Source: Amycolatopsis sp. DSM 110486 | Lineage (GTDB): Bacteria; Actinomycetota; Actinomycetes; Mycobacteriales; Pseudonocardiaceae | Assembly: GCF_019468465.1 (NCBI RefSeq) | Contig: NZ_CP080519.1 | Location: 4,045,001-4,109,000 of the forward strand | Direction: 5' to 3' | Length of the DNA: 64,000 nucleotides | Part shown: one piece after another, positions 126 through 22,837 of the stretch | Layout: each line of letters opens with the position of its first letter | Numbering within the stretch: the first letter of the stretch is position 1 | Notes under the pieces: generated by a model | The model's input: only the letters and a program-made list of their open reading frames with translations | Databases searched by the model: none | Told to the model about the DNA's origin: nothing | Program-made: the position numbers and the translations under genes

Positions 126-498
126 GGTCGAGCCGCGTCGCCGGCCGTGGCCCGAGGCGGCCGTCATCGACCTCGGGCCTCGGCTTCGTGCTGTGCGATC
201 GCCTGCCCGATCATCGAACAACAGCAGGTCACAGGCTGTTTTTGGCGGGTTGCTCGGCACTGGCCGCACCGCCGTGGACGCGGCAGTCCGCTCGTGGTGG
301 CGCGGCGGCCGTTCGTCCATGATTCGGTGCCGGTCGTTCGCGATTGGTTGCCAGGCCAGGCGAGGGCGAAGAAGCTGGGAAAAGACAAGCCGAGTTCAGG
401 GCGACGTTACCAGAAAGCCGCCCTGGTCGAACCCTTGACGGGCAACGGTGCCTGAGTTTATCCGGCCGTTGTCGGGGTCGAATGTGAGGGAGGACGCC
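126..498. other. Intergenic region upstream of the pqq operon
   Basis: No convincing gene. Several overlapping frames are open in this GC-rich stretch, but none has a good ribosome binding site or recognisable protein content. It must hold the promoter of the pqq operon. The final bases (487-493, AGGGAGG) are the ribosome binding site of the short peptide gene at 499. Confidence 0.5.
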
Positions 499-567
499 AT
501 GAGGTGGCAAACGCCTTATTTCGCGCTGCTCGACGCGTGCTCCGACGCCGGCCCGCGCCGGTATTGA
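499..567 (+). CDS. Divergent PqqA-like precursor peptide
   Basis: A 22-residue peptide in the usual position of pqqA, directly before pqqB. It has a strong ribosome binding site (AGGGAGG, 487-493). Aligned without gaps to the orthodox PqqA at 11789, it shares M1, W3, T5, P6, C14, A17 and Y22. Y/F8, V/L10, V/L11, E/D12, A/S15 and E/D16 are conservative changes. The crosslinking pair of PqqA (Glu16 and Tyr20, spaced E-x3-Y) is not kept: position 16 is Asp, position 20 is Arg, and the only C-terminal Tyr is residue 22. It is therefore either a decayed pqqA or a variant substrate or decoy for the PqqD/PqqE pair. It overlaps an upstream GTG (504) that automated callers might choose for pqqB. Confidence 0.72.
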   Translation: MRWQTPYFALLDACSDAGPRRY

Positions 568-584
568 CGGATTGTTTTCGTACT

Positions 585-1487
585 GTGTTCATACATTGCC
601 TCGGAGCCGCGGCTGGTGGCGGTTATCCGCAGTGGAATTGCGCTTGTGCCGGCTGCCGCAAGGCCCGGGCCAAGCCTGAAGGCGCGACGACACACGCCGG
701 GATCGCGGTTTCCGGAGACGGCGAACAGTGGGTCCTTCTGAACGCGACCCCGGACGTCCACCACCAGATCGCGGCGGATCCCTCGTTGCACCCCGGCCCG
801 GAGGTCAGGAAGACGCCGGTTGCCGGTGTGTTGCTGACCGACGCGGAGTTCGACCACACGATCGGTCTGCTGATGCTGCGCGAAGGGTCTTCGCTGACGG
901 TGTACGGGACATACCCCGTGCTGGAGGCACTGACCTTGTGGTTCCCGATCCGCGAACTGCTCAGCGACTACGCGGACTTCACCTGGTCCCAGGTCGAGGT
1001 CGGCAAGCCGCTGGACCTGGACGATCGAGTGCGCGTGACCCCGTTCCTGACCGGTTCCAAGGCGCCGCGCTACATCGGGGAGTCCCGGCTTCGCGGCCCG
1101 TCGTCGGAGTGGGAGGTGGGCTACCGCCTGGAAGACAAGGTGACCGGCGGGATCGCGGTGTACGCGCCGACACTGCCGAAGTGGGACGACAAGTTCTCCG
1201 AGCAGGTGGCGTCGGCCGACTGCGTCTTCGTGGACGGCACGTTCTGGACGGACGACGAAATGGCCGGCCAGGGTGCGGGAAGCCGGACCGGGCGCTCCAT
1301 GGGCCACATGCCCGTCAGCGGTGACGACGGTTCGGCCCGCGCGCTGGCCGCACTGCCCGCGAAGCGAAAGATCTACACGCACATCAACAACACGAACCCG
1401 ATTCTCGACGAAGAGTCCCCGGAACGGCGTTGGGTGACGGACTTGGGCATCGAGATCGGCCGAGCCGGCTTGGAGGTGGAAGTATGA
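585..1487 (+). CDS. pqqB: PqqB, metallo-beta-lactamase-fold PQQ biosynthesis protein
   Basis: PqqB acts late in PQQ biosynthesis as a metal-dependent oxygenase of the metallo-beta-lactamase fold. The GTG start at 585 puts the family's N-terminal block (a short beta strand followed by GAAAGGGYPQWNC) at residues 7-19 and gives 300 residues, the normal family length. The longer frame from 504 would overlap the peptide gene at 499-567. No good ribosome binding site precedes 585, and the peptide stop lies 17 bases upstream, so translational coupling is likely. A DAEFDHTIGLL stretch fits the metal-site region. The stop overlaps the pqqC start (ATGA). Confidence 0.93.
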   Translation: MFIHCLGAAAGGGYPQWNCACAGCRKARAKPEGATTHAGIAVSGDGEQWVLLNATPDVHHQIAADPSLHPGPEVRKTPVAGVLLTDAEFDHTIGLLMLREGSSLTVYGTYPVLEALTLWFPIRELLSDYADFTWSQVEVGKPLDLDDRVRVTPFLTGSKAPRYIGESRLRGPSSEWEVGYRLEDKVTGGIAVYAPTLPKWDDKFSEQVASADCVFVDGTFWTDDEMAGQGAGSRTGRSMGHMPVSGDDGSARALAALPAKRKIYTHINNTNPILDEESPERRWVTDLGIEIGRAGLEVEV

Positions 1488-2179
1488 ACCCGTGGTCTGC
1501 CGAGGAGTTCGAGGCGCACCTGCGGTCCATCGGAGAAAAGCGGTACCACCATCTGCACCCGTTCAACGAGCGGATGCACTCGGGCACGCTGACCGAGGAG
1601 GAGTTCCGGGGTTGGGTGCGGAATCGCTTCTACTACCAGATGAACCTGCCCAAGAAGGACGCGTTCATCCTGACCAAGCTCCCCGGCCGGGAGGATCGGC
1701 GCCAGTGGATCCAGCGCATCATCGACCATGACGGGCGAACGGGCGCAGAGGGCGGTCTCGAGAAGTGGATTCGCCTCGGCGCGGCTGTCGGCCTGAGCCG
1801 CGAAGCGTTGTTCGACACCGACACGGTGCTTCCCGGAGTGCGGTTCGCCGTCGACGCCTATGTGGACTTCTGCCGTCAGAAGCCGTGGCTGGAGGCCGTG
1901 GCGTCGGCGCTGACCGAACTGTTCGCGCCGGATCTGCTCAGCCGGCGGATCACCGACGTGCAGCACCATTACCCGTGGATCGCTTCGGAAGGCCTTGAGT
2001 ACTTCCGGGCGCGGCTCACCCAGCAGCCCAAGGACATCGCACACCTGCTCGAACTGGTGCTCAACCACGCGAAGTCGAAGGAACAGCAGGACGCGTGCGC
2101 ACGAGCCCTGGAGTTCAAGTGTGACGTCCTGTGGAGCCTGCTGGATGCCGTGGAACTCGCGTACAGCAAGAGTTCGTGA
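1484..2179 (+). CDS. pqqC: PqqC, pyrroloquinoline-quinone synthase
   Basis: PqqC is a cofactor-free oxidase that performs the final ring closure and eight-electron oxidation to PQQ. The 231-residue product is family length and opens with the typical region around EFEAHLRSIGEKRYHHLHPF, followed by RNRFYYQMNLPKKDAF. It starts at ATG 1484, overlapping the pqqB stop by four bases, and its own stop overlaps the pqqD ATG by one base. A single transcript with coupled translation is therefore likely. Nothing looks truncated or frameshifted. Confidence 0.96.
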   Translation: MNPWSAEEFEAHLRSIGEKRYHHLHPFNERMHSGTLTEEEFRGWVRNRFYYQMNLPKKDAFILTKLPGREDRRQWIQRIIDHDGRTGAEGGLEKWIRLGAAVGLSREALFDTDTVLPGVRFAVDAYVDFCRQKPWLEAVASALTELFAPDLLSRRITDVQHHYPWIASEGLEYFRARLTQQPKDIAHLLELVLNHAKSKEQQDACARALEFKCDVLWSLLDAVELAYSKSS

Positions 2180-2454
2180 TGGACGAATCCGACTTGACGG
2201 CCATCCCGAAGCTGGCGACCAAGGCGATGCTCAAGCACGACAACGTCCGTGACGTGGAGCTGCTCCTGTTGCCGGAGCGGGTCGTGCTCCTGAACAAGTC
2301 CGGGGCGGCGATCTTGGGGCTGTGCGACGGCAGCCGGACCGTGCGGCAGCTGGTCGACCAGCTCGAGCAGGACTTCGCGGCCGCCGATCTCGCGAACGAC
2401 GTGATGACGTTCCTCCAGGATGCCCGCGGACGGGGTTGGGTGGTGGTCTCATGA
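2179..2454 (+). CDS. pqqD: PqqD, peptide chaperone for PqqA
   Basis: PqqD is the RiPP recognition protein that binds PqqA and presents it to the radical SAM enzyme PqqE. The 91-residue product has the compact winged-helix PqqD layout with LLLPERVVLLNKSGAAIL near residues 30-47 and a following GSRTVRQLVDQLE helix. It is a separate gene here, not fused to PqqC. It starts inside the pqqC stop (TGATG) and ends overlapping the pqqE start (ATGA). This tight coupling favours 1:1 production with PqqE. Confidence 0.94.
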   Translation: MDESDLTAIPKLATKAMLKHDNVRDVELLLLPERVVLLNKSGAAILGLCDGSRTVRQLVDQLEQDFAAADLANDVMTFLQDARGRGWVVVS

Positions 2455-3575
2455 ACGGCACGCCGCAGCCGTACGGCCTGCTGGCCGAAGTCACGCACCA
2501 GTGCCCGTTGCACTGCGTCTACTGCTCGAACCCGTTGGAGCTGCTGGATCGGCAGGACGAGCTCACCACCGAAGACTGGTTGCGGGTGATCAACGAGGCG
2601 GTTGGGCTCGGGGTCGTGCAGGTGCACTTCTCGGGCGGTGAACCCCTCGTTCGCGGCGATCTGGAGACGCTGGTCGCCGAATGCCGTCGCCTCGGGCTGT
2701 ACACGAACCTGATCACCAGCGGCCTCGGGCTCACGGAGAGCCGGGCGAAATCACTTGTCGAGGCCGGCCTCAACAGCGCGCAGCTGAGCATCCAGGGCGA
2801 CGCCGCCGAGTCGACGAACCTGGTCGCGGCGAGCAAGCGGTTCGACAAGAAGGAGGCCGCCGCACGCATCATCCGCGACGCCGGCCTGCCGTTGAACATG
2901 AACGTGGTCCTGCACCGGATGAACCTGCCGCGGCTGGACGCGATCATCGACGTCTGCGTGTCGTGGGGCGCCGAGCGGCTGGAGCTCGCGAACTCCCAGT
3001 ACTACGGCTGGGCCCTGCGCAACCGTGATCTGCTGATGCCGACCAAGGCCCAGCTCGACGACGCGGTCGGTGTTTACGAACGCCGGAAGGCCGAGCTGGG
3101 GGAGAGCATGGAACTCCTCTGGATCCTTCCGGACTACTACGAGCCCTACCCGAAGCCGTGCATGGGCGGCTGGGCGCAGAACGCACTGACCGTCGCGCCG
3201 GACGGCACCGTGTACCCGTGCCCGGTGGCCGCGGAGATCACGACGATGACCTTCTCCTCGGTTCGCGACCACGATCTCGCGTGGATCTGGGAGAAGTCCG
3301 AGGCGTTCCAGGCCTACCGCGGAACGGAGTGGATGCCCGACCCGTGCCAGAGCTGCCCGCGCAAGGAGCTCGATTTCGGCGGCTGCCGGTGCCAGGCGTT
3401 CGCGTTGACCGGTGACGCGGCGCGCACCGATCCCGTGTGCATGCACTCGCCCGACCACCACTTGGTGCAGGACGCTCTCGTTCGCGCCAACCAGGAGGAT
3501 GTCCCGACCGACGGTGAAAAGCTCCGCGAAAAGCTGGTTTACCGCCGCCCGACGGTGTCGGCGCACCGGCCCTGA
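2451..3575 (+). CDS. pqqE: PqqE, radical SAM/SPASM enzyme that crosslinks PqqA
   Basis: PqqE forms the carbon-carbon bond between Glu and Tyr of PqqA, the first step of PQQ synthesis. The radical SAM cluster motif CPLHCVYC is near residues 16-23 and the SAM-binding GGEP is present. The C-terminal SPASM region keeps its cysteines (CMGGWAQ, DGTVYPCP, CQSCPRK, GGCRCQ) for the auxiliary Fe-S clusters. At 374 residues it has normal length. It is the last pqq gene of the operon and is followed three bases later by an M1 aminopeptidase. Confidence 0.96.
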   Translation: MNGTPQPYGLLAEVTHQCPLHCVYCSNPLELLDRQDELTTEDWLRVINEAVGLGVVQVHFSGGEPLVRGDLETLVAECRRLGLYTNLITSGLGLTESRAKSLVEAGLNSAQLSIQGDAAESTNLVAASKRFDKKEAAARIIRDAGLPLNMNVVLHRMNLPRLDAIIDVCVSWGAERLELANSQYYGWALRNRDLLMPTKAQLDDAVGVYERRKAELGESMELLWILPDYYEPYPKPCMGGWAQNALTVAPDGTVYPCPVAAEITTMTFSSVRDHDLAWIWEKSEAFQAYRGTEWMPDPCQSCPRKELDFGGCRCQAFALTGDAARTDPVCMHSPDHHLVQDALVRANQEDVPTDGEKLREKLVYRRPTVSAHRP

Positions 3576-11788: not shown

Positions 11789-11863
11789 ATGCAGTGGGAA
11801 ACTCCGGAGTACACGGTCGTCGAGGTGTGCGCTGAGGCCACCGGCTACTTTTACCGGGCCTGA
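11789..11863 (+). CDS. pqqA: PqqA, precursor peptide of pyrroloquinoline quinone
   Basis: A 24-residue peptide with the essential Glu16 and Tyr20 of PqqA (EATGY, spacing E-x3-Y), which PqqE links and from which PQQ is built. The start has a strong GAGGAGG site (11777-11783) five bases before the ATG. The N-terminal recognition part includes W3, T5 and P6, shared with the divergent copy at 499. It is monocistronic, followed by a terminator, and lies about 8 kb downstream of pqqE instead of before pqqB. Separate transcription would allow the peptide to be made in excess of the enzymes. Confidence 0.93.
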   Translation: MQWETPEYTVVEVCAEATGYFYRA

Positions 11864-11993: not shown

Positions 11994-12092
11994 GGCACCC
12001 GCGGAAAGTAGCAAAACCCCCTGTCGAGAACAGGCTGATATTCACAGTCTCCCTCCCCGGTGAACCCTGGTTGATCTGTTGAGGTGGTTCAG

Positions 12093-12647
12093 GTGTCTCT
12101 TGAATTTCTTCCGCTGATAGCGCTTGCCTTCGGGCTCAGTCTCGACAATTTCCGCTCGTCGATCGCTATCGGAACCATTCCTTTCGGTTGGCGTCGCGCC
12201 GTGCAGGTCGCCGTCGTCTTCGGAGTGTGGGATGCCGTGAGTCCGCTGCTGGGCGGGTTGATCGGGCACTTCCTGGGTGACTTCCTCGGAGACTGGGCGG
12301 ACTACGTCGGGGCGGCCGCGCTCGGGTTGTACGGCATCTACTTCATCGTCGGAGCGATCCGGAACCCGGAGCCGGCGGAGGAAGACCTGGACCACCCGTG
12401 GGTGACGCTCTTCGGCATGCCGCTTTCGCTGAGCATCGACAATTTCGTCGCGGGCGCCGGTCTGGGGATCGCCGGGTTCTCCCTCATCGTCCCCATGGTG
12501 GCCTTCGGTGTCATGACGATGATCATGTCGTTCGTCGGGCTCTTCGTCGGGAAGATGGCGGCCAAGGTCATCCGCGTTCGTGCCGACTTGCTCTGCGGCA
12601 TCTCGCTGCTCGGCGCGGCGATCCTGCTGCCGCTGGTCTTCGACTGA
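12093..12647 (+). CDS. MntP-like manganese efflux membrane protein
   Basis: A 184-residue polytopic membrane protein made of two similar halves. Each carries a conserved acidic membrane motif ([14 protein letters not shown] near residue 17 and [16 protein letters not shown] near residue 110), as in MntP manganese exporters. About six hydrophobic segments are visible. GTG 12093 is preferred over GTG 12084 because GAGGTGG precedes it at proper distance. It lies 25 bases upstream of katG, so the pair probably forms an oxidative-stress/metal-homeostasis unit. Transport of another divalent ion or a trivalent metal cannot be excluded. Confidence 0.8.
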
Positions 12648-12672
12648 TCGACGCGGCCGGGGGAGGACAGCC

Positions 12673-14910
12673 ATGCCGGAGAATCCCGATACCCACGTCT
12701 ACCGCACTTACGACCGGGTCCTGGAAGAGTCGCGGCCGGCTCGGCGGCGCAACCACCCCACGGCGAGCGGCAACCCCAACGACTGGTGGCCGCACCGCAT
12801 CGACTTGAGGACCTTGCACCGCAACCAACCCGCCGACAGCCCGCTGGACCCGGATTTCGACTACGCCGAGCAGTTCGCGACGGTGGACCTCGACGAGCTG
12901 GCGCGTGACGTCGACGAGGTGCTGACAACCTCGCAGGACTGGTGGCCCGCCGACTTCGGGCATTACGGCCCGCTCGTGCTGCGCATGGCCTGGCACGCCG
13001 CGGGTACCTATCGCGTCAGCGACGGCCGAGGCGGTGCGAGCGCCGGGATGCAACGCTTCGCCCCCTTGAACAGCTGGCCCGACAACCGAAACCTGGACAA
13101 GGCGCGCCGGTTGTTGTGGCCGGTGAAGAAGAAATACGGGCGCGGGATCTCCTGGGCGGACCTGATGGTCTTCGCCGGCAACCGGGCACTGGAGTCGATG
13201 GGCTTCAAGACCTTCGGCTTCGGCGGCGGCCGGGCCGAGGTGTGGGAGCCCGACGAGACGTACTGGGGGCCGGAACGCAAGTGGTTGGCGGACGACCGGC
13301 ACAGCGGCCGCCGTGACCTCGACGAGCCGCTGGCGGCCAGCGACATGGGCCTGATCTACGTCGACCCGCAGGGCCCCGCCACCAACCCCGACCCGGTACT
13401 CGCGGCCCGCGACATCCGGCAGACGTTCCGGCGGATGGGCCTGAACGACGAGGAGACGGTCGCGCTGATCGCCGGCGGCCACAGCTTCGGAAAGACCCAC
13501 GGGCTGCTGGACCCGGCCGTGCACCTCGGCCCCGACCCCGAAGCCGCGCCGCTCACCGCGCAAGGCCTGGGCTGGGCGAACGAACACGGCACCGGCAAGG
13601 GCCCCGACACCACGAGCAGCGGGCTGGAGGGGATGTGGACGCGCACGCCTGTCACGTGGGACCACACCTTCTTCGAGACGCTGTTCGAGTACAAGTGGGA
13701 CGTCGAGCTCAGCCCGGCCGGGCTGTGGCAATGGATCCCGGCCGACGGCCAGGGTGAGGGCACCGTGCCGGACCCGTACGACCCGGACGAGAAGCACCAC
13801 CCGGTCATGCTCACCACGGACCTGTCCCTGCAGGAGGACTCGGCCTACGAGCGGATCTCCCGGCGTTTCCTGGAGCACCCGGACGAGTTCGAGGACGCGT
13901 TCGCGCGGGCCTGGTTCAAGCTGACGCACGTCGACATGGGCCCGATCCAGCGTTATCTCGGGTCGCTCGTCCCGGCCGAACGGCTGATCTGGCAGGACCC
14001 GGTGCCGGAGTCCGACCACGCGCTCGTGGACGCCTATGGCGTCGCCGCCCTCAAGCGCGAGCTTCTCGAATCGGGCCTGACGGTCGCGCAGCTCGTCTCG
14101 ACGGCGTGGGCCTCGGCGTCGACTTACCGCGACAGCGACAAGCGAGGTGGCGCGAACGGGGCGCGGCTGCGGCTCGAGCCGCAGTGCGGCTGGGCGGTCA
14201 ACGAGCCCGAGCAGCTGGATGTCGTCCTGCCCGTGCTGGAGGCGATCCGGGAGCGGTTCAACGCCTCGCAGCCGTCGGGCACACGGATCTCGATGGCCGA
14301 CTTGATCGTGCTCGGCGGGTGTGCCGCGGTGGAACACGCCGCCGCGGCCGGCGGCCACGTCGTCGACGTCCCGTTCCGCCCCGGGCGCACCGACGCGACG
14401 CAGGACTGGACCGACGTCGAGTGGTTCGATGCGTTGCGGCCCCTTGCCGACGGCTTCCGGAACTACCTCGGCGACGGCTTCTGGATGTCGCCGGAGCACT
14501 TGCTGGTGGACCGGGCGAACCTGCTGACCTTGACCGCGCCCGAGCTGACCGTGCTGGTCGGCGGGTTGCGCGTGCTCGGAGCCAACCACCGGCGGTCCCC
14601 GCTGGGTGCGTTGACCTCGGCGCCCGGGACGTTGACCAACGACTTCTTCGTCAACCTGCTGGACCTGGGGACGGAGTGGGCGCCGAGGCGGAACGCGGAC
14701 GTCTGGACGGTGGTCTACGAAGGCCGAGACCGCGGCACCGGTGAGGTGAAGTGGATCGCGAGCCGGGTCGACCTCATCTTCGGATCGAACTCCGAGCTGC
14801 GGGCGCTCTCGGAGGTCTACGCGAGCGAGGACGCCGGCGCGAAGTTCGTGCGGGACTTCGTGTCCGCCTGGGTCAAGGTCATGGAGCTCGACCGGTTCGA
14901 CCTGCGCTGA
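12673..14910 (+). CDS. katG: Bifunctional catalase-peroxidase KatG
   Basis: A 745-residue class I heme peroxidase removing hydrogen peroxide. The distal site [11 protein letters not shown] carries the Arg-Trp-His set, and the proximal heme ligand is in [10 protein letters not shown]. The Tyr ([10 protein letters not shown]) and Met ([10 protein letters not shown]) of the Met-Tyr-Trp adduct needed for catalase activity are present. The second, non-catalytic peroxidase-like domain follows at full length. Start at ATG 12673 with a GGGGGAGGA site. Catalase-peroxidase of Amycolatopsis methanolica is known to be made during growth on methanol, which fits this location. Confidence 0.97.
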
Positions 14911-15291: not shown

Positions 15292-16971
15292 TCACAGGGA
15301 GAACGTGATCAGCGCGGCACCGTGACCCTGGCCGGACATGCCGGGGACGATGCCTTCGAGCCAGCCACCCCAGCCGACCGGCACCGAGATGTACTGCTTG
15401 CCGTCAAGGGACCAGGTCGACGGGCTGCTGTGGTGACCGCTACCGCACTGGAAACTCCAGAGCTTCTCACCGGTCTCGGCGTGCAGCGCCATGAACTCGC
15501 CCGCCGGCGTGCCGGCGAACACCAGGTTGCCCGCGGTGCTCAGGGTCGAAGCGGCCATCGGGAATGGGAGCCGGTAGCGCCACTTCTCTTCACCGTGGGA
15601 GTCGAACGCGCTGACCGACCCGGCCATGTTGTCGACGTCGACCTCGACGGCGGCACCCCAGTAGGGCATGCCTTCCTTGAACTCGCGACGACGGCGGGTG
15701 GCCGTGGCGCCCACGTCGGCGACCGGAACGTAGAACAGGTCGTGCTCCGGGTTGTACGAGGCGTGCGTCCACTCCTTCGCACCGGCGGGGCCGGGGTAGA
15801 AGTGGCAGGGCTCGCCTTCCTTGTCCGGGTACTTGCGCGGGGTCACCTTGCCGTCGCGGGTGATGACGCCCCAGTCGATCCGGTCGACGAACGGCGTGAC
15901 GTGCTGCAGCTCGCCGTTGGTGCGGTCGAGGACGAACATGTACCCGTTCTTGTCGAAGTGGGCCAGCAGCTTCTTGCCGTCCCGCTCGAACAGGGTCATC
16001 TCCATTGTGGAGTCGTAGTCCCACAGGTCGTGCGGCGTGAACTGGTAGTGCCACTTGATCTCGCCCGTGTCGACGTCCAGCGCGACCACGCTGTCGGTGT
16101 AGAGGTTGTCCCCTTCACGGACCTCGCCGTCGAAGTCGGGAGCCGGGTTACCGGTGCCCGCGTAGTACAGGTTCAGGTCGGGGTCGAACGTTCCGGTGAC
16201 CCAGTGGTTCGCACCGCCGCGCTGCCAGGCCTCGCCGTCGGCTGGCCAGGTCTCCGAGCCGGGCTCACCCGGCTTCGGCACGGTGTAGGTGCGCCAGCGC
16301 CGCTCGCCGGTCTCCAGGTCCCAGCAGTCGATGTGACCGCGGACGCCGTACTCGCCACCGGCGGAACCCGTGATGAGCGTGTCCTTGATGACCAGCGGAG
16401 CGATGGAAGCGCTCTCTCCCGCGCGCACGTCGCCGATGGTCTTCTGCCAGACCTTCTGGCCGGTGGTGGCGTCGAGCGCCACCAGCTGGGCGTTCTGGGT
16501 CACCATGTAGACCTTGCCGTTGGCCACCGCGCAGCCGCGGTTGACGTTGGCACAGCACAGGGTCACGTCGATCGGGATCGCGTGCTTGTAGCGCCACAGC
16601 TGCTCGCCGGTCCTGGCGTCGAGCGCCCAGAGCCAGCCGTCCCAGCCAGTGACGAACATGACGCCGTCGATCATCAGCGGGCTGGCCTCGAAGGCGTAGG
16701 TCGACGTCGAGGCGATCATCCCCGTCGCGCTCGCCTGGTGGATCCAGGCGACCTTCAGGTTCTTGACGGTGTCGACGTTGATCTGGTCGAGCAGGCTGTG
16801 CCGCTTGCCGTCGTAGTCGCCGTAGTAGGTGAGCCAGTTCTGGGCTTCGTTGCGCGCGTCGAGGATGCGCTCGTAGTTGACGCCGCGCGTCACGTCCGGC
16901 GCGCTGTGCGGCAGGTTCGAGAGCTTGTTGTGGTTGAACGCCTTACCGGCGTCGATGTATTCGAGGGTCAT
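15292..16971 (-). CDS. PQQ-dependent alcohol dehydrogenase, lanthanide-type, no signal peptide
   Basis: A 559-residue eight-bladed propeller quinoprotein of the methanol/ethanol dehydrogenase family. Recognisable are the vicinal disulfide TLCCANVNRG, the metal Glu in GGEYGVRG, the metal Asn in GTGNPAP, and the catalytic region PHDLWDYDSTME. The Asp two residues after the catalytic Asp (WDYD) is the mark of lanthanide-dependent XoxF-like enzymes; calcium-type MxaF has Ala there. No Sec or Tat signal is found at the start (ATG 16971 after AGGCAGGA), unlike known periplasmic or secreted members. It forms an operon with the PQQ-associated protein 16 bases upstream. Substrate could be methanol or another alcohol. 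Confidence 0.93.
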   Translation of the reverse strand: MTLEYIDAGKAFNHNKLSNLPHSAPDVTRGVNYERILDARNEAQNWLTYYGDYDGKRHSLLDQINVDTVKNLKVAWIHQASATGMIASTSTYAFEASPLMIDGVMFVTGWDGWLWALDARTGEQLWRYKHAIPIDVTLCCANVNRGCAVANGKVYMVTQNAQLVALDATTGQKVWQKTIGDVRAGESASIAPLVIKDTLITGSAGGEYGVRGHIDCWDLETGERRWRTYTVPKPGEPGSETWPADGEAWQRGGANHWVTGTFDPDLNLYYAGTGNPAPDFDGEVREGDNLYTDSVVALDVDTGEIKWHYQFTPHDLWDYDSTMEMTLFERDGKKLLAHFDKNGYMFVLDRTNGELQHVTPFVDRIDWGVITRDGKVTPRKYPDKEGEPCHFYPGPAGAKEWTHASYNPEHDLFYVPVADVGATATRRRREFKEGMPYWGAAVEVDVDNMAGSVSAFDSHGEEKWRYRLPFPMAASTLSTAGNLVFAGTPAGEFMALHAETGEKLWSFQCGSGHHSSPSTWSLDGKQYISVPVGWGGWLEGIVPGMSGQGHGAALITFSL

Positions 16972-16987
16972 GGCGAGTCCTGCCTTT

Positions 16988-17443
16988 CTACGGCCGGGGC
17001 TGGGCGGGTCGGTCGAGCTTGGCTTCCGGCGGAACCTCACCGGACACGACGATGGCGCCCTGCAGCCCGCGACCCTCGTCGTTGCCGGCCGGCGAGCCGT
17101 ACCAGTAGCAGCCCGGACCGTCCAGCTCGAGCGTCGCGCTGCCCTTCGAGTGGTTCAGCAGACCGATGAACTGCCGGTCGCCGTTGCTGGGCAGCAGGCA
17201 GGCGTGGGTGTTCTTGTCGTCGTTGATGATCGTCAGTTCGAGGATGCCGGCGTGCGGCATGATCAGCACCCCCGGCTCCCACGCCATCGCGTCCTCCGGG
17301 ATCCGGATGGTCCCTTCCATCGTCCCGTCGGGACGCTCGGTCGCCTTGGCGATCGTGCCGGTGCCGAGCACGGCACCGATGGTTGCCTTGTTCTGTCCGC
17401 TGAGCTCGGCCAAGAGATCTTCACGATCCTGGGTAGCCGTCAT
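16988..17443 (-). CDS. Cupredoxin-like PQQ-associated protein
   Basis: A 151-residue protein, first gene of the dehydrogenase operon, with a GAGGAGGTGA ribosome binding site. The C-terminal two thirds resemble a cupredoxin beta sandwich (ELTIINDD, then H in NTHACLLP, then GPGCYWYGSP). The loop that should carry Cys-x-His-x-Met copper ligands has Cys but Asn, Asp and Leu elsewhere (CYWYGSPAGNDEGRGLQG). A type 1 copper site is therefore doubtful. No signal peptide is present. It resembles the family I remember as 'MSMEG_3727 PQQ-associated protein', found next to PQQ dehydrogenases in actinobacteria. It may be a partner subunit or electron acceptor of the dehydrogenase. Confidence 0.8.
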   Translation of the reverse strand: MTATQDREDLLAELSGQNKATIGAVLGTGTIAKATERPDGTMEGTIRIPEDAMAWEPGVLIMPHAGILELTIINDDKNTHACLLPSNGDRQFIGLLNHSKGSATLELDGPGCYWYGSPAGNDEGRGLQGAIVVSGEVPPEAKLDRPAQPRP

Positions 17444-22043: not shown

Positions 22044-22168
22044 GGTCGATGGGTGGGTATTTGTTGTGCGCATTGGGGGATTGTGTTTTTGCATGTGGTG
22101 GAGTGTTGCCGGTTTTCGGGTGGGTGAGGATTGTTGTGGGGGCTATCGGTTGGTTGGTCGGCGGGTTC
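22044..22168. repeat. 125-bp inverted repeat, right copy (hps leader)
   Basis: Identical, in inverted orientation, to bases 1-125. It lies between the divergent rpe and hps genes and ends 28 bases before the hps start, so it includes the hps promoter region. Perfect identity over this length, with no obvious transposon ends, suggests recent duplication or gene conversion. Confidence 0.93.
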
Positions 22169-22196
22169 GCCGTCGGTGGGTTGTGAGGAGATCGTT

Positions 22197-22826
22197 GTGC
22201 GGTTGCAGGTGGCGTTGGATGTGTTGGATCTGCCGGCGGCGTTGACGTTGGCGAATCAGGTGGCTGAGCATGTGGACATTTTGGAGTTGGGGACGCCGTT
22301 GGTGAAGTCGGCGGGGATCGCGGCGGTGAGTGCGATCAAGGCGGCTCATCCGGACAAGCTGGTGTTCGTGGATTTGAAGACCGCGGATGCGGGTGAGCTG
22401 GAAGCGGCGCTGGCGTTCGAGGCGGGCGCGGACCTGGTGACGGTGATGGGTGCGGCTGATGACGACACTGTGCGCGGTGCGGTGGCGGCGGGTCGTAAGT
22501 ACGGCAAGCAGGTCGTGGCGGACATGATCACGGTGGTGGAGGGCCGGGTCGCGCGGATCCGGGAGGTCTCGAAGCTGGGTGTGTCCTTTGTGGAGATCCA
22601 CGCCGGTCTGGACGAGCAGGCCCGCCCCGGTTACACGATCGACACCCTGCTGGAAGACGGCCGCCTCGCGGGTGTGCCGTTCTCGATCGCGGGCGGGATC
22701 AAGATCGACACCATCGCCGCGGTCCGCGAAGCCGGCGCCACGGTCGCTGTTGCGGGGGGTGCGATCTACAACGCGGCCGACCCGGGTGCCGCAGCGAAGG
22801 AACTCAAAAAGCGCGCCACCGCCTGA
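22197..22826 (+). CDS. hps: 3-hexulose-6-phosphate synthase
   Basis: A 209-residue orotidine-decarboxylase-fold enzyme that fixes formaldehyde onto ribulose 5-phosphate. Family motifs are [61 protein letters not shown] and [14 protein letters not shown] 22197 is preceded by GAGGAG (22185-22190). The first 250 bases favour G/T-ending codons (GTG, TTG, GAT) unlike the C-ending codons of the second half and of neighbouring genes, hinting at a mosaic or acquired origin. Downstream tkt and phi complete the pathway. Confidence 0.96.
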
Positions 22827-22837
22827 CCGAACCCACT

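Follow-up and report, generated by a model that had tools for sequence, protein, structure and literature searches.

The PqqA peptide of Acinetobacter calcoaceticus carries a Glu-x3-Tyr motif, in which a change of Glu to Asp or of Tyr to Phe abolishes PQQ, as stated in an excerpt of that study (PMC2294125); likewise, passages of PMC8326336 describe that PqqE requires PqqD and joins the Glu to the Tyr. Passages on Methylophilaceae (PMC4109929) and Methylobacterium (PMC4161386) report pqqA genes that lie apart from pqqBCDE or that occur in several copies. The locus described here is similar to these in both respects; those passages, however, deal with copy number and distance, whereas here the original copy appears to have decayed in place. 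Among the literature matches listed, comprising titles and abstract openings and with subscription journals sparsely covered, there was no report of a decayed pqqA retained ahead of pqqB. Parts of PMC12548453 and PMC10666635 describe translationally coupled pairs of genes, the first of which is a short cistron, and the locus resembles these in having a well-served upstream start and a stop close to a poorly served one. Unlike in the pairs of those passages, the upstream ORF would be a dead cofactor-precursor gene, coupling is here inferred, and the gap of 17 nt is at the long end.

We analysed a window of 64,000 nucleotides, that is, the whole stretch of DNA under study (G000:C1:4045001-4109000, G000 being this genome), and its relevant features are collected in Table 1. 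The 22-residue ORF ahead of pqqB, with the product MRWQTPYFALLDACSDAGPRRY followed by a stop, is present exactly as in the preliminary description and has its own ribosome site. Judging from sequence comparisons, we consider it very likely that this ORF is the decayed original pqqA, and not a second working precursor gene; it would be the remnant of an ancestral pqqA that once headed a pqqABCDE operon.

Table 1. Position of the features of the pqq locus in the window.
Feature	Position	Strand	Evidence and remarks
Shine-Dalgarno site GGGAGG of the relic ORF	488..493	+	Sequence; pairing -12.1 kcal/mol; low divergence around the site
Relic pqqA ORF	499..567	+	Length 22 codons; probably a leader for pqqB translation; alignment with relatives
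Possible alternative TTG start of pqqB	564..566	+	Overlaps the stop of the relic (TTGA); not conserved
pqqB	585..1487	+	TIGR02108, 381.9 bits (cut-off 245); GTG start; weak own Shine-Dalgarno site
pqqC	1484..2179	+	TIGR02111, 310.3 bits (cut-off 240)
pqqD	2176..2454	+	TIGR03859, 78.7 bits (cut-off 46)
pqqE	2451..3575	+	TIGR02109, 486.6 bits (cut-off 381.35); scanned as 2322-3575
Orthodox pqqA (Glu16, Tyr20)	11789..11863	+	Likely working precursor gene of the locus; dN/dS 0.03 over nine such pairs
MntP-type manganese efflux gene, adjoining the orthodox pqqA	12084..12647	+	PF02659
Catalase/peroxidase (KatG), start approximate	12580..14910	+	TIGR00198, 1057.6 bits
PQQ-dependent methanol/ethanol-family dehydrogenase	15292..17040	-	TIGR03075, 617.4 bits (cut-off 480.05)

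The relic shares with PqqA (PF08042, TIGR02107) its place before pqqB, its length, the MxW start, T5, P6, C14, A17 and, as shown below, a shared descent by way of intermediates. It differs from PqqA in its relaxed selection and in lacking Glu-x3-Tyr: as had been claimed, it has Asp16 (codon 544-546), Arg20 instead of Tyr20, and Tyr22 (last Tyr codon, 562-564). It also gave no match with the PqqA profiles of Pfam and NCBIfam at E up to 5, and is absent among the five PqqA-profile matches found in the whole genome at E up to 10; the orthodox PqqA (MQWETPEYTVVEVCAEATGYFYRA) itself falls below both curated cut-offs (PF08042, 20.1 bits with a cut-off of 21.1; TIGR02107, 14.8 bits with a cut-off of 20). 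The gap-free alignment of both peptides reported earlier holds for its 7 identities in 22 positions, although a BLOSUM62 reading yields 8 other conservative positions and not 7. When the 22-mer was shuffled 100,000 times, no shuffle reached the score of this ungapped match. It is not the evolutionary alignment, however: the relic contains a 6-nt deletion, and in the alignment with relatives its apparent Arg20 corresponds to ancestral residue 22 and its apparent Tyr22 to the final Arg codon in the form of 24 residues. Additionally, the relic scores 40 against the orthodox 21-residue core, vs 39 for an unrelated frame in the window and 120 for the orthodox copy, so that the resemblance alone is weak evidence and, taken by itself, borderline with respect to chance. 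The leader ORFs occupying the same place in relatives have core scores of 98 (G374), 97 (G371), 71 (G189) and 69 (G091), and it is these graded intermediates that establish the homology of the relic with pqqA.

We searched 390 genomes of the family of the window (Amycolatopsis and allies) and found the clade of this pqqB in 42 of them at E 1e-90; within the genus, 14 of the 80 genomes searched carry it at E values not above 1e-100. Upstream of pqqB, the sequence was read in 42/42 genomes and contains a pqqA with an intact Glu16-x3-Tyr20 in 11, a broken one in 22, including this genome, and no homologous ORF in nine; two of the latter (G280 and G201) were classed as leaderless by hand, the automated picks being non-homologous GTG ORFs. 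The Glu-x3-Tyr pair occurs in 11/11 intact and 0/22 broken leaders. Eighty further loci were taken from a named collection, and 12 of them were inspected for a PqqA before pqqB. An intact one was found in a Propionibacteriales MAG (L154), a Paenibacillus MAG (L156), Cohnella (L160) and an Obscuribacterales MAG (L168); Prauserella cavernicola (L155) has a broken leader with Glu16 and His20, L186 has a fragment-like match only, and 6/12 gave no pattern match. Since an intact pqqA precedes pqqB also in these four more distant loci, the arrangement is old and the relic was formerly a real pqqA. Two genomes, G367 and G366 (loci L134 and L136), contain a pqqB of the clade that is not followed by pqqC, D or E over the next 4 kb, and an intact pqqA 80-100 kb away.

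Of the 33 leaders, 29 were aligned (G281, G282, G283 and G390 were excluded), and the alignment shows the steps of the decay. Leaders of G374 and G371 retain Glu16 and Tyr20, and a second pqqA is already present in these genomes. In G189, G091 and G081 there is a His20 together with Glu16, and His20 also appears in G191 and G194, with Gln16 and Ala16, respectively. The leader of the nearest relative, G028 (94% in PqqB), is MRWQTPYCALLEACSEAGPCRY and, like the leader of this genome, has lost 6 nt across the Tyr20 codon; because G028, with the same deletion, retains Glu16, Asp16 is a later change on the branch of this genome. Both leaders differ in four nucleotides over 21 compared codons, all of them changing the amino acid and none silent. 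The old copy lost first the crosslinking Tyr20, with Glu16 changing to Asp afterwards. In the alignment we counted seven changes of leader length (one shared by G000 and G028, and those of the G034-G035 group, of G009, of the G348 group, of G077, of G370 and of G288). G370 is a separate breakage, its sisters G369 and G372 being intact. The whole leader ORF is lost in G029, in G196, in G030 with G098, and in G277 with G280. Several nodes in the tree of relatives have low support (32 to 75) and some of its rows are incomplete (G366 and G367 lack pqqC, D and E, and G201 lacks pqqE), so that counts of independent losses are a reading of the tree and not a test.

The preliminary description had also considered the 22-mer as the substrate for a different crosslink, between Asp16 and Tyr22, and proposed to look for conservation of W3-T5-P6-C14 with Asp16/Tyr22. 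This would be a radical-SAM crosslink giving a new product. Both residues are present in this relic, and radical-SAM peptide enzymes as a class form several crosslinks, as indicated in passages of PMC8326336. Such a role would call for conservation of the core, which was not observed, and the proposed pattern is not conserved either: Asp16 and Tyr22 occur together in 0/32 other leader-bearing genomes. Asp at 16 recurs in G035 and G328, both without Tyr22, and Tyr at 22 recurs in G028, G189, G374 and G371, all of them with Glu16, being the last residue in G028 only. This, together with the Arg codon facing the last Tyr in relatives and the Glu16 of the nearest one, makes this crosslink extremely improbable, and we rejected it.

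The precursor gene is likely to be elsewhere in the locus. Of the 22 genomes whose leader is broken, 21 contain a separate pqqA of the WETPEYTVVEVCAEATGYFYR kind, as do 8/9 leaderless genomes (29/31 altogether), the two exceptions being G028 and G201. Among the genomes with an intact leader, a second copy exists in 7/11, and none was found in G226, G390, G391 and G393, in all four of which the leader is intact. The second pqqA, at 11789 in the window, ahead of mntP and katG and near the gene for a PQQ-dependent alcohol dehydrogenase, would have become the precursor gene. Comparison with 13 relatives of the genus indicated that the separate pqqA of G030 and G098 is immediately 3' of pqqE, ahead of mntP and katG, and that in ten of the 13 pqqE is separated from mntP-katG or katG by a block comprising lysR, fba, glpX and a HAD gene, which in seven of these ten includes also pepN. 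No orthodox separate pqqA was found in the one-contig genome of G028, whose synteny with the window stops inside pepN; its pqqBCDE genes are intact and 94-98% identical to those of the window, and a PqqA of another type is located at 7.72 Mb.

Six genomes (G034, G024, G010, G035, G009 and G067; loci L039-L043 and L058) contain two intact orthodox pqqA genes on opposite strands of the region, one of the copies having a GTG start. Moreover, this genome contains three pqqE genes over the curated cut-off, with other pqq clusters at G000:C1:7914869-7915900 and 8052508-8053530 (L045 and L046). The cluster at 7.91 Mb includes a PqqA, MESRLDVWETPEFDEIGVAPEVTMYIAQLDD, that exceeds the TIGR02107 cut-off, and no PqqA was recognised in that at 8.05 Mb.

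We compared the selection on these genes by Nei-Gojobori counts, using for the broken leaders six sister pairs chosen without length change. These pairs show 52 replacement and 29 silent changes, with a dN/dS of 0.57 (0.13 to 0.95 in single pairs), values that, as with all our statistics of leader conservation, are indications because the lineages are related. By contrast, the separate plus-strand pqqA genes (nine pairs) show 2 replacement and 19 silent changes, with a dN/dS of 0.03, and the first 100 codons of pqqB in the six broken-leader pairs, assuming no gaps, show 46 and 130, with a dN/dS of 0.10; Fisher tests of the broken leaders gave 1e-5 against the former and 9e-9 against the latter. 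Values for the minus-strand second pqqA copies (five pairs; 7 replacement and 6 silent changes) and for the intact leaders (four pairs; 15.5 and 8.5) were 0.34 and 0.47, respectively. According to these counts, the separate pqqA is under strong purifying selection and selection on the relic is largely relaxed. The pN/pS of broken leaders is 0.63 in frame, the two remaining frames giving 1.12 and 1.44, and this leaves room for a weak residual constraint on the peptide; their changes are not clearly uneven among codon positions 1, 2 and 3 (22, 24 and 35 of 128 each).

This somewhat lower in-frame value, together with the retention of some of Trp3, Glu16 and Cys14 in relatives such as G091 and G081, is what could be expected from a decoy or regulator, with the 22-mer binding PqqD or PqqE uncrosslinked and tuning PQQ synthesis. 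That option, raised as a decoy in the preliminary description, predicts conserved binding residues, and none were seen: Trp3 is gone from 12/21 other broken leaders, including those of G034, G024, G067, G010, G035 and G009, their late residues are scrambled, their lengths vary from 16 to 24, and several lineages do not have the ORF. We thus rejected also this reading, which appears very improbable, the residues not being conserved among leader-bearing relatives.

What is retained in broken leaders is apparently the translation signal and not the peptide: a strong ribosome site, an ATG and a stop near pqqB. In all 22 there is an ATG, the Shine-Dalgarno energy lies between -9.2 and -12.2, and the stop falls 1-17 nt ahead of pqqB, a retention that is partly definitional because genomes without these elements are counted among the nine leaderless ones. 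In the six sister pairs, differing sites amount to 35/84 in the upstream spacer, 4/72 around the Shine-Dalgarno site, 0/18 in the ATG and 81/384 in the body. In a neutral simulation with substitutions only (no indels), ATG, frame and stop all survived in 18% of the runs at 20% divergence and in 7% at 30%; besides, 6/7 of the length changes are multiples of three, and G288 has a new stop 9 nt before pqqB. All this argues against a pure pseudogene, that is, an ORF that is merely decaying and whose ribosome site and ATG persist because of the short time elapsed or as a distant landing site for pqqB. The largely relaxed peptide and the full loss of the ORF in the lineages named above would agree with a pseudogene, which we nevertheless consider unlikely.

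We favour instead, with some reserve, that the relic serves as a translational leader of pqqB. The ribosome site of the relic is better than that of pqqB, as previously noted, with a predicted anti-Shine-Dalgarno pairing of -12.1 kcal/mol for ATG499 vs -3.3 for GTG585. A GTG or ATG exists at the pqqB start position in all 42 genomes, and the median energy of the pqqB site is -3.3 in those with a leader (n=33) vs -11.7 in those without (n=9; Mann-Whitney p 3e-5). In G029, for example, from which the ORF is gone, a ribosome site of the same type, GGAGGACG, is immediately ahead of the GTG of pqqB. Six of the nine leaderless genomes have a site of -9.8 or stronger, the other three having -4.8, -6.2 and -6.2; some leader-bearing genomes have a fair pqqB site, up to -7.8. 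In G281, G282 and G283 a leader coexists with a moderate pqqB site (-6.2 to -7.2); the leader start is lost in the related G277 and G280, whose pqqB site is at -6.2. In the proposed mechanism, ribosomes would load at the relic, terminate after 22 codons and restart at the poorly served pqqB, resulting in coupled translation.

A weak point of the leader reading is the distance of 17 nt from the relic stop to the conserved start, GTG585, for which published limits of reinitiation disagree: a passage of one study reports a reduction of 40-80% at +14 nt and almost no reinitiation by around +20 (PMC10666635), and work cited in part of a review indicates that it is undiminished up to +25 (PMC12548453). 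An in-frame TTG at 564, overlapping the relic stop, is present in this genome and G028; the site is CTG in G091, and is followed by an in-frame TGA in G189, G191, G288, G081 and G371. G028, with a broken leader, intact pqqBCDE and no orthodox pqqA, counts against the explanation as a whole. The predicted openness of the start (mean unpaired) is 0.32 for pqqB vs 0.42 for the leader (p 2e-4); for pqqB with vs without a leader it is 0.32 vs 0.39 (p 0.09), and RNA structure was set aside as evidence because this last difference is not clear. Attenuation was also considered for the leader and dropped, as there was no terminator-like site within positions 1-700 of the window and no Rfam match within positions 1-1500 at E up to 1.

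In all, comparison among genomes shows the descent of ORF 499-567 from pqqA, the stepwise loss of its crosslinking pair, a relaxed selection on it, the conservation of its ribosome site and start, and the existence of a replacement copy; the decayed precursor, one of the options of the preliminary description, is strongly supported by the stepwise loss, the relaxed selection and the replacement. The ORF is probably a degenerate ancestral pqqA, replaced by the copy at 11789 and retained as the leader cistron of pqqB. We infer that coupling is the reason why it persists and that the 22-mer itself is inert. We would give an even chance to the more general proposition that, once a working pqqA had come to lie among the alcohol-oxidation genes, selection retained the dead precursor gene solely as a translational gate for pqqB, and dropped it when a ribosome site directly preceded pqqB; its start, ribosome site and end position would be conserved and its peptide would become random.

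An inverted repeat of 786 bp, with 98.1% identity, bounds the pqq region (window 22044-22829 and G000:C1:4044340-4045125), the last 125 bases of its left copy being positions 1-125 of the window. It carries a gene for 3-hexulose-6-phosphate synthase, over the TIGR03128 cut-off in the right copy, and homologous sequences were present at 16/24 relative loci from 13 genomes, with several contigs terminating in it. Positions 499-28000 of the window look like a C1-utilisation island, containing genes for PQQ synthesis, the PQQ-dependent methanol/ethanol-family dehydrogenase, hexulose-phosphate synthase, rpe, fba and transketolase, as well as two glpX-like genes and two LytTR-domain proteins.

The leaders before pqqB constitute a graded natural series, comprising intact, His20, deleted-codon and ORF-less forms, within one operon and across related genera. 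A precursor gene apparently becoming a cis-acting leader can be seen in this series, and its co-option is therefore testable. Our results also warn that an ORF in the position of pqqA need not be a precursor, and that in this group PQQ clusters seem to depend on a detached pqqA of 24 codons, which is easily missed.
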